Positions 57,454 through 64,000 of a stretch of 64,000 nt of DNA are shown in pieces. This DNA comes from Aureispira sp. CCB-QB1 (GTDB taxonomy: Bacteria > Bacteroidota > Bacteroidia > Chitinophagales > Saprospiraceae): positions 1 to 64,000 of the forward strand of contig NZ_JHBV01000027.1 of NCBI RefSeq assembly GCF_000724545.1, given 5' to 3'. The notes under the pieces are model-generated. The model was not told the origin of the DNA. It ran no database searches and was given only the letters and a program-made list of their open reading frames with translations. Both the position numbers and the translations under genes were made by a program. Every line of letters starts with the position of its first letter. Within the stretch, counting starts at the first letter, position 1.

Positions 57454-60400
57454 ATGCCTTTTAAAAAGAATTACAACGCTAAGTCAAGACCTAAATTCGA
57501 TTCAATCGTATTGAGTTTGGCTTCTCCAGATGCTATTTTAGAGCGTTCTTATGGTGAGGTTTTAAAACCAGAAACCATTAACTACCGCTCTTACAAACCA
57601 GAACGTGACGGGCTATTTTGTGAGCGTATATTCGGTCCTGTAAAGGATTATGAATGTTACTGCGGTAAATATAAACGTATTCGTTATAAAGGTATTGTAT
57701 GTGATCGTTGTGGGGTTGAAGTAACAGAGAAAAAAGTACGTCGTGAACGTATGGGACACATCAAGTTGGTCGTTCCTGTTGTTCATATTTGGTACTTCAA
57801 ATCATTACCAAATAAGATTGGTTACTTACTAGGCTATTCTTCTAAGAAATTAGAGACAATTATCTATTACGAGCGTTACGTGGTGATTCAACCAGGTATT
57901 GTTGCGGATAGAGAAATTAATGGTAGTGAAGTTAAAGACTTGATTACAGAAGAAGAGTATTTGGACATCATGGAATCTCTTCCTAAGGAGAACCACTTAC
58001 TTCCTGATGATGATCCAAATAAATTTATCGCTAAAATGGGAGCAGATGCTGTAAGAGAATTGTTGAGCCGTATGGAGCTAGACAAGATCGCTTACGAGTT
58101 GCGTCACAAAGCAGCGACAGAAAATTCTCAACAACGTAAATCAGAAGCATTAAAGCGTTTGCGTGTTGTTGAGGCTTTTAGAGATGGACACACTCGTATG
58201 GAAAACAAACCTGAGTGGATGGTAATTGAATATTTACCTGTCATTCCACCAGAATTGCGTCCATTGGTACCTTTAGATGGTGGTCGTTTTGCAAGTTCGG
58301 ATATGAACGATTTGTATCGTCGTGTTATTATTCGTAACAACCGTTTAAAGCGTTTATTAGAAATCAAAGCTCCTGAGGTAATCTTACGTAACGAAAAACG
58401 TATGTTGCAAGAAGCTGTCGATTCTCTATTTGATAACTCACGTAAGTCAAATGCTGTAAAAGCAGAAGGTGGACGTGCTTTGAAATCTTTGTCAGATGTT
58501 CTGAAAGGTAAGCAAGGGCGTTTCCGTCAAAACTTATTGGGTAAACGTGTGGATTACTCAGGACGTTCGGTAATTGTAGTAGGACCTACTTTAAAATTGC
58601 ACGAATGTGGTATTCCTAAAGGAATGGCTGCTGAGTTGTTCAAACCATTTGTTATCCGTAAGTTGATTGAACGTGGTATTGTTAAGACTGTAAAATCGGC
58701 TAAGAAATTAGTTGATCGAAAAGACCCCATTATTTGGGATATTTTGGAGAATGTATTGAAGGGACACCCTGTTATGCTTAACCGTGCTCCTACGCTTCAC
58801 CGTTTGTCAATTCAGGCTTTTCAGCCAACGTTGATTGAAGGGAAAGCAATTCAATTACATCCTTTGGTTTGTTCTGCATTTAACGCGGATTTTGATGGTG
58901 ACCAGATGGCGGTACACGTTCCATTGGGGAACCAAGCAATCTTAGAGGCTCAAATGTTGATGCTTTCGGCACACAATATGTTGAATCCTCAAAATGGTAC
59001 GCCAATCACACTTCCTTCACAGGATATGGTTTTGGGATTGTATTACCTAACCAAAGAAAAACGCAGTACTGACGATGTAAAAGTAAAAGGAGAAGGTCGT
59101 GCGTTTTATTCATCTGAAGAGGTCATCATTGCCTATAATGAGGGGAATGTTGATTTGCATGCTATTATCAAAGTTCGTGCAAGAACAGAAGACGAAAATG
59201 GTAACTTGACTTATGGTAAGCGTATAGAGACAACTGTTGGTCGTGTTATCTTCAATGAAAAAGTGCCAGAAACGGTACCTTTCATCAACCAAGAATTGTC
59301 AAAAAGAAATTTGAAGAAAGTTATCTCTAATATTCTAAAGAGAACCAATACTAGTACTACGGCACTTTTCTTGGATGATATTAAAGATATGGGATTCTAT
59401 TGGGCTTACCGTGGTGGTTTGTCTTTCAACCTTCCAGATTTGATTACTCCTTCTATTCGTTCAAAACGATTGGAAACTGCGCATGACGAAATTGAAGATA
59501 TTTGGAACAATTATAACATGGGACTTATTACGAATAATGAGCGTTATAACCAAATTATCGATGAATGGACGCAGGCGGATAACGAGATTACCAATGTCTT
59601 GATGGATGAAATGGCAGCACACAAACAAGGATTTAACTCGGTATATATGATGTTGGATTCTGGTGCTCGTGGATCTAAACAACAAATTAAGCAGTTGTGT
59701 GGATTGCGTGGATTGATGGCAAAACCTAGAAAATCTGGTGATACTGGGGGAGCAATTATCGAAAACCCCGTATTGGCGAACTTCGTACAAGGATTGTCGG
59801 TATTAGAGTACTTTATCTCTACGCATGGTGCTCGTAAAGGTTTGGCGGATACGGCATTAAAAACGGCAGATGCTGGATATTTGACACGTCGTTTGGTAGA
59901 CGTTGCTCAAGATGTAGTGATTAACATTGATAGTTGTGGTACATTGAGAGGTATTGTACGTACTGCCTTGATTGAAAACGATAAGATTATTCAGTCTTTG
60001 AGTGATCGTATCGAAGGTCGTTATCCTTTGCATAATGTTTACCATCCAGAGACAGACGAACTATTGGTATCAACAGAGGAAGTTATTTCTCCTGAAATGG
60101 CATTGTTGATTGAAGAAGTAGGTATTGAAATGGTTATTGTACGTTCTGTCTTAACATGTGAAGCAAAACGTGGTGTTTGTCTAAAATGTTATGGTAAAAA
60201 CTTAGCAACAGGTCGCTTGGCAGAGTTAGGAGATGCTGTTGGTATTATTGCTGCTCAGTCTATTGGTGAGCCGGGTACGCAGTTAACACTTCGTACGTTC
60301 CACGTAGGGGGTACGGCATCATATACGGTAGAAGAATCAAGCTTGGTTTCTAAGTTTGAAGGTCGTATCGAATTTGATGGTGTAAGAACGGTAACTTATA

Positions 60401-61794
60401 AAGACGAAGAGAAAGGCACAGAATTACCGATTGTTATTTCTCGTTCTGGTGAAGTACGTATTATTGATACAAAAACAAATCGCGTTTTATCTTCTAACTA
60501 TATCATGTATGGTGCTGGACTATATGTCCAAGATGGTGCTATGATTACTAAAGGAGAAAAAATCTGTGATTGGGATCCATATAATGCAGCGATCATTACT
60601 GAGTTTGATGGTTCTATTGAATTTGAAAATATCGTTGAAGGTAAAACTTACCGTGTAGAACGTGATGAGCAAACAGGTCACGAGCAGTTTGTTGTTATTG
60701 AATCTAAAAACAAAAAGCAAGTACCTGCCATTAAAATTGTAGATGCTAGTGGTGAGACTCTTCGTTCTTATAACGTACCTGTAGGCGCATTCATTGATGT
60801 TAGCGACGAGCAAAAGGTAGTAAAAGGACAAGCAATTGTTAAGATTCCTCGTGTAATGGGTAAAATCCAGGATATCACGGGTGGTTTGCCTCGTGTAACA
60901 GAGTTGTTTGAGGCACGTAAACCATCTACTCCTGCTGTGGCTACTGAAATCGATGGTGTTGTTAGTTTTGGTCGTATCAAGCGTGGTAACCGTGAGTGTA
61001 TCGTTACGGCTAGAGATGGTCAAAAACGCAAGTACTTAATTGGACTTTCTCGTCATATCTTGGTTCAAGAGGGAGATTTTGTTCGTGCTGGTATGCCATT
61101 ATCAAATGGTAATATTGCACCACATGATATCTTATCAATCGAAGGACCGTTTGCGGTACAGCAGTATTTAGTGAATGGTGTTCAAGAAGTTTATCGTGCA
61201 CAAGGTATTACAATTAATGACAAACATATTGAGGTAATTGTGCGTCAAATGATGCGCAAGGTTCAAATCTTGGATGCTGGTGATACTAAGTTCTTGGAAA
61301 AAGAGGCTGTACTAAAAAGCGATTTCTTAGAAGAGAACGAAGATATTTACGATAAGTTAATCGTTGAGGATGCTGGAGGTTCTAGCAAAATTGTAGCGGG
61401 TATGTTGATTACTGAGCGTCAATTCCAAGAAGAAAAGGCTTATTTGAAACGTAACGATCGTAAAGTTTTACAAGCACGTGCAGCTATTCCTGCTACCGCA
61501 AAACCATTGTTACAAGGGATTACAAAATCTTCTTTGGGTACGAAGAGCTGGATTTCAGCTGCATCGTTCCAAGAAACTACAAAAGTATTGAGTACAGCTT
61601 CTATTTCTGCTTCTGCTGATACTTTGCAAGGTCTAAAAGAAAATGTAATTGTTGGTAAGAAAATTCCAGCGGGTACAGGTCTTAGACATTTTGATAATCT
61701 TATTGTTGCAGACATGGAAAAAATGGAAGCAATTGAAGCGAAACGTAGAGCAGAAGCTGCTGCTGCGGAAGAAGAGGTTATTATTGGAGAATAA
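57454..61794 (+). CDS. rpoC: RNA polymerase beta' subunit
   Basis: Catalytic subunit of RNA polymerase, 1446 residues. The N-terminal zinc ribbon (CYCGKYKRI ... CDRCGVEV), the active-site Mg loop [12 protein letters not shown] and the second Zn site ([15 protein letters not shown]) are complete. Bridge helix and trigger loop ([17 protein letters not shown]) are as expected. The C-terminus is Glu-rich ([14 protein letters not shown]). A strong terminator follows at 61818, closing the tuf-rpo block. Confidence 0.98.
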
Positions 61795-61817: not shown

Positions 61818-61853
61818 AAAGGAGCTGTTCTTAGTTGAGCAGCTCCTTTTTGT
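61818..61853 (+). terminator. Terminator of the rpoBC transcript
   Basis: A 10-bp perfect stem (AAAGGAGCTG with CAGCTCCTTT), extendable by wobble pairing, runs into TTTTTGTTT 24 bases after the rpoC stop. Confidence 0.9.
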
Positions 61854-61874: not shown

Positions 61875-64000
61875 CTAAAAGGAAAAAGAAAACTTCAATT
61901 GTTGTTCTTTATTGTCAAAATCAAAAGATGCTATAAAGTCTTTAAGATAAGGTTGGAGCAACGCCTTTAAACTATCTCTATCTGGATAGAGCAACCCTAG
62001 TTGAAGGATAGCTTTATTATGCCTATATTCTATACTAGGGTAGGGGCGAATTATCAAATTAGAGACTTGTTCGAACGCAATAATAAGCCCTACCAAATGC
62101 CCTTCGACCCAACCACAAGCCTGGTTTAATTGCTCCAAACTTTTAGCTTTTATGTTTATCGTTAGATTTATTGTAGAGGAAGTATCAATAGCCATAAACA
62201 AAGATTTCCAAGAAATAGCTCCTTTCTTTTGATTTTTTAAAATTTCATTGCCTCTATTCAATTCTTGTTGCAATATACTAGCAGTAGATCGAGTCACATT
62301 TCTAGCACTGTTATAATAAGGTTTGATCGTTGTTAGAATTGGCATTCGATCTTGTTTCTCCCTCAGATGATAGCGAGGCTCTTTTATTAAAGTAATAGGT
62401 TGCGTCCAGTTGTATTGAGATAAGAGAGAGAAAAAATAAGGCATCAGTGTACTAATGTCCTCTAAATCTTCCTGCTTTGGAATACGATCGAGCACCCAAA
62501 GAGCTAAGATAGTCCATGAATAGGTTCCCAAAAAACCAAAGGCATTTCCCTTTATTTTCCTAGCGGTTGCCCATATTTTTATGGCTTTTACAAACCAGCG
62601 AAAACTATCTAGCGAAATTTTTCTTTGACTGTAGGTCAGAATGGAATTTGCTTCCAAAATTCCAGTTACTGCTTGCCAGTCTTGTGCACTGAAATAGTAC
62701 CGATGTTTTTCCGATAGGTTATCCAATGATATGAATGCTGTAGGATAGGCTACACACAACAAATCGATAGAAATGCCCTCCATTTTTAGTTTTAAAATAG
62801 GAACTTGGGCATCTTGTATTAATCGAGCTGTTTCATACCAGCCTTTTAGTTGTGTTTGTACTCTTTCTAAAAAAGCTAGAGGGTCTAATTCGTTAGGAAT
62901 TGCAGCCAAGATATCTAAATCGCTTGTGCTGGTATTGGTACCTAAAGCAGTTGAACCTAATTGATGTAGTTTGTACTCTTGACCTAATATGTTATCACAA
63001 GTAGTCTGAATTATGTCTAGTATTATTGACCTATTTTGTTGTTCTGGAAAAGATATTACAGCTTTTTTATTACTTAATAATTCAACTAAATTCTGTTCGT
63101 CTACTTTTGATGGTGCATTATTATTAATAATACCAGTTTCTAAATCAATTGTATATCTTATTTTAAATGCTTCTTGATGACAACGACTGATAAGTGCAAG
63201 ACGCTTGACTTTAAAATTAGTCTTTTTCCAAGGAGGTAATGATTTCTTAGCTAGTTCAATTGACCTAAATTGACCAACACTTAAATGAGGAGTAAAGGAT
63301 AGTTTTGTTTTGGGTAACCCATTTTGCCTTACAAATAAACGTTGCATCAAACGTTGTAATTTTTTCAAACGACCACCTTGATTGGTCTCAACAGGTTCTA
63401 GCCAAGCAATTATTTCTGTTTTTTGATTGAAAAATTGATATTGTTTTAATTCTAATTCAAATACTGAAAACGCTTTGAGTACAGTGCTTAATTCTTGTGC
63501 TGCTTGCTCGAAATATCGATCTGGTAAAAAGCCATACAATAATGTAATATGAGGCATCCATCGATTGTATTTTCGATCAAACTGTTGCCGTATTGTTTGG
63601 ACTTTTTTCGAAGTATGCTCATCTGGAAGAATAACAATAGCACTGCGATAGGTCGAAGCAATCGTATTCCAAAAATTGCTTGGTGGCTCAATTTTTTCCG
63701 TCGCCTTTTGATGAATAATATTTAACGATAAACCATAGTGATCAGAAGGCAAAGACATAGGAGAGGACATTGTTGTCATTTGATTGGCGAATAAAGCTGC
63801 TTGCTCTATTTTCCAATATTGTTCTTGGCTCGTTCGAATATAAAAGCGATCAAAGCGTGCAGGCAGACCTGTTAGGGTAGATATTGCTGCTAGAGGATTA
63901 TAACTTGGTTCAAAGGTATATCCATCTTTATGAGGATGTTGAGTGCTCCACGCATCCCAAAACTGTTCTTTGTCTAATAATTCTAATCCTTCTTGTCCTC
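61875..64000 (-). CDS. EEP - 2H phosphoesterase - poly(A)-polymerase-like fusion protein (5' end outside the window)
   Basis: The frame stays open to the window's right edge, so at least 707 residues are visible and the start is missing. Met at 63779 is internal; positions below count from it. Just before it lie FWDAWSTQHPHKDGYTFEP, SYNPLAA and ARFDRFYIR, then SDHYGL at 12-17: the end of an endonuclease/exonuclease/phosphatase domain (TDP2-like). Residues about 40-215 form a 2H phosphoesterase (LigT/CPDase-like) with HITL at 77 and HLSV at 165. Residues about 230-600 resemble eukaryotic poly(A) polymerases: GS at 275-276, DLD at 287-289, third Asp at 339 (SIDLLCV), then a central domain with IKIWATARKIKGNAFGFLG. 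It probably processes RNA or DNA ends. The three active sites all appear intact. The order and fusion are unusual for a bacterium. Confidence 0.85.
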   Translation of the reverse strand, partial: GQEGLELLDKEQFWDAWSTQHPHKDGYTFEPSYNPLAAISTLTGLPARFDRFYIRTSQEQYWKIEQAALFANQMTTMSSPMSLPSDHYGLSLNIIHQKATEKIEPPSNFWNTIASTYRSAIVILPDEHTSKKVQTIRQQFDRKYNRWMPHITLLYGFLPDRYFEQAAQELSTVLKAFSVFELELKQYQFFNQKTEIIAWLEPVETNQGGRLKKLQRLMQRLFVRQNGLPKTKLSFTPHLSVGQFRSIELAKKSLPPWKKTNFKVKRLALISRCHQEAFKIRYTIDLETGIINNNAPSKVDEQNLVELLSNKKAVISFPEQQNRSIILDIIQTTCDNILGQEYKLHQLGSTALGTNTSTSDLDILAAIPNELDPLAFLERVQTQLKGWYETARLIQDAQVPILKLKMEGISIDLLCVAYPTAFISLDNLSEKHRYYFSAQDWQAVTGILEANSILTYSQRKISLDSFRWFVKAIKIWATARKIKGNAFGFLGTYSWTILALWVLDRIPKQEDLEDISTLMPYFFSLLSQYNWTQPITLIKEPRYHLREKQDRMPILTTIKPYYNSARNVTRSTASILQQELNRGNEILKNQKKGAISWKSLFMAIDTSSTINLTINIKAKSLEQLNQACGWVEGHLVGLIIAFEQVSNLIIRPYPSIEYRHNKAILQLGLLYPDRDSLKALLQPYLKDFIASFDFDNKEQQLKFSFSF

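Follow-up and report, generated by a model that had tools for sequence, protein, structure and literature searches.

What does a bacterium use a eukaryote-type poly(A) polymerase for, when the enzyme is joined in one chain to other domains that act on nucleic-acid ends? This question arises from a long minus-strand frame that runs off the right-hand end of the DNA analysed here (the window; 64,000 nucleotides at the start of a 185 kb Aureispira sp. CCB-QB1 contig, G000:C27). An earlier note, made from the letters of the window alone, had read the frame as a tripartite fusion of an EEP nuclease, a 2H phosphoesterase and a poly(A) polymerase (PAP)-like nucleotidyltransferase (NTase), with a role in RNA repair or tailing.

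A four-domain chain in a single reading frame

Following the frame beyond position 64,000, we found that it continues free of stop codons to its ATG (Table 1) and encodes a 997-aa protein. Neither a stop codon nor a frameshift lies just past the window, and the domains stay in one chain. Pfam orders them as MJ1316, EEP, 2H, class I NTase palm and PAP central domain, all above the curated cut-offs. The three domains proposed in the note were all recovered, while the count of three was not, as the N-terminal MJ1316 domain makes four; it had been missed because it lies outside the window. An independent genome search also recovered MJ1316 (6.7e-11), and all the motifs named in the note are present, including the central helix AIKIWATARKIKGNAFGFLG. 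MJ1316, which occurs in fusions with RNA-repair domains, is a predicted recogniser of RNA 2′,3′-cyclic ends (PMC6514570).

Full-length homologues down to about 25% identity keep both the reading frame and the order of the domains, which argues that the fusion is not due to chance. Between Aureispira species, all domains have a dN/dS far below 1, with dS near saturation in pairs that include the window gene; in the better-behaved L003/L009 pair, dN/dS is ~0.06 in MJ1316 and 0.13-0.25 in the other domains. A single-gene artefact or frameshift was rejected on the strength of the full-length homologues and the purifying selection. Across 8 sequences from three phyla, the core catalytic residues of the EEP, 2H and NTase domains are invariant, as are the RxxWD, IPWxR and VWDR residues of MJ1316. 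A structure model from two sequences only, the L003 homologue and the window fragment, had a pLDDT of 30.6.

Table 1 Features of the fusion gene and its surroundings; positions marked "contig" extend beyond the window.
Feature	Position	Strand	Details
Fusion gene, window part	61875..64000	-	stop codon 61875-61877; ATG at contig position 64868, beyond the window
MJ1316 domain, residues 9-73	contig 64650-64844, outside the window	-	PF04457, 2.6e-10; 41.3 bits against a cut-off of 26.3
Whole EEP domain, residues 139-377	contig 63738-64454	-	PF03372, 2e-15 over residues 139-345
EEP domain, C-terminal part, residues 291-377	63738..64000	-	carries D340, D376 and H377
2H phosphoesterase domain, residues 415-562	63183..63626	-	PF13563, 8.7e-25; H440, H528
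Class I NTase (PAP palm), residues 603-710	62739..63062	-	PF22600, 4.5e-8; PF20750, 2.9e-7; alignment with yeast Pap1
PAP central domain, residues 756-892	62193..62603	-	PF04928, 1.7e-24
C-terminal region, residues 893-997	61878..62192	-	first part aligns with the beginning of what comes after the central domain in human PAP-gamma
rpoC (convergent neighbour, given as context)	57454..61794	+	arrangement kept in two other Aureispira species
Symmetric, A/T-flanked hairpin of 13 pairs, lying between rpoC and fusion gene	61818..61849	.	sequence

As the note had stated, the rpoC neighbour is convergent and not operonic. The hairpin between the two genes is probably a terminator common to both, and a second hairpin separates the fusion gene from its upstream gene; with hairpins on both sides, the fusion gene looks monocistronic in Aureispira. 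The closest named relative is an uncultured Aureispira MAG, with 64% identity at the protein level; there, as in G459, rpoC is likewise the convergent neighbour. The position of rpoC is not functionally telling, because other genera of Saprospiraceae have different genes around the fusion. The product of the next gene upstream (L002:5479-7671, minus strand) is 730 aa long; it starts with a signal-like segment, contains two repeats of ~220 residues that resemble each other and ends in a type IX-secretion-like C terminus. A second EEP protein, of 362 aa and with N-terminal hydrophobic segments, is encoded farther upstream, ~4 kb from the fusion gene (L002:9094-10182, minus strand; contig 69094-70182), where two rhomboid-like membrane protein genes adjoin it.

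Active-site residues and the poly(A) polymerase core

The EEP assignment of the note was confirmed by a significant profile match. The domain carries the complete N/E/H/DxN/D/DH catalytic set of its superfamily (N141, E177, H250, D286, N288, D340, D376 and H377, the first five outside the window), invariant in 8 homologues, with the motifs GYTF(E)P, RFDR (R338-D340-R341) and SDHYGL (S375-D376-H377). Its best relative in the PDB is TDP2 (profile match 9e-18); CCR4-type proteins match too, more weakly. All catalytic motifs are in common with TDP2 and the CCR4/nocturnin enzymes, unlike which the EEP domain here is placed between MJ1316 and 2H. The likeness to TDP2 could point to the repair of breaks whose ends are chiefly DNA or RNA-DNA hybrid, where the EEP domain would treat blocked 3′ or 5′ termini in a TDP2/APE-like manner and Rnl5/HD-Pnk would seal nicks. 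We consider this improbable, given that the MJ1316 and 2H families are associated with RNA 2′,3′-cyclic ends and that class I PAPs extend RNA.

In the 2H domain, HITL (H440) and HLSV (H528) stand 88 residues apart, the spacing given in the note, and both histidines are invariant in 8 sequences. These are the two H-x-[T/S] motifs of 2H phosphoesterases, the first being HxN in several homologues. The domain shares both histidine motifs and PF13563 with ThpR/YjcG, from which it differs in the HxT or HxN form of the first motif and in a TIGR02258 match (4.3e-10, 39.8 bits) below the cut-off of 65.7.

Animals and fungi are the usual carriers of class I PAPs. Here the class I profiles score above their cut-offs (PF04928, 86.7 against 27.1 bits; PF20750, 31 against 27; PF22600, 33.7 against 27), and Pfam places the PAP-type NTase near residues 611-709. 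The GS motif and carboxylate triad (G638, S639, D650-x-D652 and D702) are invariant in 8 sequences. Human PAP-gamma (1.3e-61) and yeast Pap1 (7.5e-57) are both matched by the family profile, whose alignment extends to PAP-gamma residue 426, past the central domain; the beta-alpha pattern modelled for residues 893-997 is of low confidence. The class II PolyA_pol head domain (PF01743) is absent from the Pfam matches of the fusion protein, and in Aureispira a class II PolyA_pol/CCA-type gene with that domain lies apart from the fusion, on another contig (G000:C44). The claim of a eukaryote-type class I module stands, as eukaryotic PAPs, and not CCA enzymes, are what the NTase resembles. With Pap1 and PAP-gamma it shares the palm and central domains, the GS/DxD/D triad and an alignment into the C-terminal region; unlike theirs, this PAP core sits behind three other domains. 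Matches to CBASS cyclases from PADLOC and NCBIfam were rejected as an identification, being weak and overlapping the PAP region.

Nucleotide preference is less assured. Of the ATP-selecting residues in the Pap1 segment AIKLWAQRRAVYANIFGF, the Lys and Asn are kept in the fusion, and the Tyr of VYANIFGF, which contacts ATP in yeast Pap1, aligns with Lys773. This position is Tyr in Calothrix and Asp in actinomycetes. With Lys773 at the Tyr position, ATP specificity of the predicted PAP cannot be taken for granted. The actinomycete proteins keep the triad and have lost the Asn of the central motif and a later NVTRST-like motif, so tailing is perhaps not universal in the family.

Distribution and the RNA ligase-kinase link

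MJ1316 was found in 1/395 genomes sampled across the phylum and the fusion in 1/395 sampled across the class. Within Saprospiraceae, 7/398 genomes encode the full-length protein and one more copy (G532) is cut by a contig end; the full-length homologues fall in three genera, the truncated copy in a fourth. Beyond the phylum, where the wider distribution is under-sampled, full-length homologues are carried by a conjugative Calothrix plasmid (36% identity) and by Embleya and Nonomuraea replicons (23-25%). The Calothrix protein is 36-41% identical to Saprospiraceae members, and many Saprospiraceae genera are 35-48% identical to one another. By pairwise identity, with no tree, Calothrix is as similar to Saprospiraceae as many of their genera are mutually, which suggests that the fusion may have been exchanged laterally between phyla.

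Partial relatives also occur. Streptomyces plasmids encode MJ1316-2H proteins without EEP or PAP domains, which supports a link between MJ1316 and 2H; one such two-domain protein, of 302 aa, lies at L017:4725-5633 and is absent from the gene table. Viral contigs yielded one EEP-only relative, and no relative of the fusion was found in the phage records searched. Profile matches in the fusion-less Aureispira genomes G453 and G456 proved to be separate EEP proteins of ~325 aa and were discarded as fusions; that of G453 lies at L030:4657-5634, and that of G456 was reported with two internal TGA codons.

Beside the Calothrix homologue (L013:11528-18216) are genes for a dynamin-like GTPase (weak LeoBC match) and a DEDDh exonuclease/STAND-like protein, and the plasmid neighbourhood is possibly a defence region. 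These neighbours, and a weak likeness between the central region and models of CBASS cyclases, would suit nucleotide signalling or defence, with the NTase making an oligonucleotide messenger and 2H/EEP degrading it, as in CBASS or 2-5A systems. Such a role is very unlikely: the similarity to PAPs is far stronger (1e-61 by profile, against about 6e-8 at best, in a single member, for the cyclase), no effector gene was recognised beside the fusion, and MJ1316 and the ligase-kinase partner described below would be left unexplained.

That partner is encoded in 3/3 actinomycete loci by an upstream gene overlapping the fusion gene. Its product combines an RNA ligase (PF09414, 7e-33) with a P-loop kinase (AAA_33, 4e-21). 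In the two Embleya loci (L014 and L016), the fusion ATG shares one base with the stop codon of the ligase-kinase gene; in Nonomuraea (L015), the two genes overlap by a few bases at most. In all three proteins, ~235-300 residues between ligase and kinase have no Pfam match, and this is where Saprospiraceae have an HD domain. Elsewhere in the Aureispira genome, a gene for a related RNA ligase of 218 aa overlaps one for an HD-plus-kinase (HD-Pnk) protein with the motifs LLHDIGK and GSGK.

The ligase also co-occurs with the fusion. Among 58 Saprospiraceae genomes sampled, it is present in 7/8 with the fusion and 8/50 without (P = 1.5e-4), the fusion-less genomes being a convenience sample. By genus, a count that controls relatedness only partly, the figures are 4/4 and 5/43 (Fisher P about 7e-4). 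Against such a coupling, the Saprospiraceae fusion is a single gene that does not adjoin the ligase, two Aureispira genomes carry the ligase without the fusion, and G587 has the fusion with no ligase detected (genome 93% complete, in 670 contigs). Saprospiraceae also already own HD-Pnk, a possible second source of 2′,3′-phosphoesterase.

The same facts bear on a further explanation, in which cleaved RNA is recognised, its 3′ end is cleaned and a tail targets it to exoribonucleases, the ligase link in Bacteroidota being incidental. The class I PAP core with its intact triad and the distance of the Saprospiraceae gene from the ligase would agree with such tagging for decay. We nevertheless think it unlikely, because the short overlap (one or a few bases) that the actinomycete fusion genes share with ligase-kinase and the co-occurrence in Saprospiraceae point to sealing, and Aureispira has its separate class II PolyA_pol/CCA-type gene.

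Deinococcus RNA ligase/HD-Pnk cassettes resemble both arrangements, in the actinomycete ligase-kinase (RNA ligase and adjacent AAA ATPase genes) and in the Aureispira HD-kinase; no Deinococcus match to the fusion was found in the plasmid search. The Deinococcus HD/kinase protein DRB0098 has 5′-polynucleotide kinase activity (PMC1997131). Unlike Deinococcus HD-Pnk, the actinomycete kinase protein has no HD domain detectable by Pfam. Its absence fits 2H as the 3′-end healer in actinomycetes, while Saprospiraceae have both HD-Pnk and 2H.

A proposed route for RNA 3′-end healing

The fusion is probably an RNA 3′-end healing and extension enzyme that works with an Rnl/Pnk ligation pathway. An RNA-repair role is the most likely, since the rare relatives adjoin RNA-ligase repair genes. 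We infer each enzymatic step, the order of the steps, the RNA substrate and the biological role from the domains and their neighbours. MJ1316 would dock on RNA with a 2′,3′-cyclic phosphate at its 3′ end, as left by ribotoxins or RNases. 2H enzymes open 2′,3′-cyclic phosphates, and the 2H domain would here yield the monophosphate. EEP enzymes take off terminal phosphates, adducts or nucleotides; the TDP2/CCR4-like domain may remove a blocking phosphate, adduct or terminal nucleotides to leave a clean 3′-OH. Class I PAPs extend RNA 3′-OH ends, and the PAP module could then add nucleotides to the healed end, either restoring lost ones or tagging the RNA. Finally, the Rnl5-like RNA ligase would seal the RNA, with the P-loop/HD polynucleotide kinase healing the 5′ end. 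The RNA repair or tailing proposed in the earlier note is accordingly the best-supported reading, through MJ1316 and the actinomycete ligase-kinase overlap; the link to a ligase and the prior prediction of MJ1316 repair had escaped it.

A bolder version is a gap-restoring pathway in which one bacterial polypeptide recognises and heals the 2′,3′-cyclic end and then, with its eukaryote-type PAP and without a template, replaces the 3′ nucleotides that were lost before an Rnl/Pnk partner seals, the pathway having been exchanged between distant phyla; we regard this as possible and hold it tentatively.

The RNA-repair systems in the 2016 survey of Burroughs & Aravind are said to consist of a ligase, a nucleotidyltransferase and end-modifying enzymes. 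The fusion belongs with the MJ1316 RNA-repair proteins: it has an MJ1316 domain above the cut-off together with repair enzymes, EEP, 2H and PAP in cis and the ligase-kinase adjoining in actinomycetes. MJ1316/2H/EEP-type RNA repair is already known as a prediction. With the MJ1316 proteins described before, it shares the fusion of MJ1316 to RNA-repair domains; eukaryotic fusions are those stressed in PMC6514570, whereas here a bacterial chromosomal gene encodes a single chain with EEP, 2H and a class I PAP. As far as the survey is represented in that citing paper (PMC6514570), the bacterial four-domain chain with class I PAP and ligase-kinase coupling looks like a little-studied variant.

The fusion puts a poly(A) polymerase core of eukaryotic type in a bacterial setting, linked with the predicted recognition, healing and ligation of RNA ends. 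Its patchy spread over Saprospiraceae, a cyanobacterial plasmid and actinomycetes is relevant to the way in which RNA-repair modules pass from one phylum to another, and the predicted enzyme is compact and open to direct test. Should the extension step prove real, RNA repair could replace missing nucleotides besides rejoining ends.
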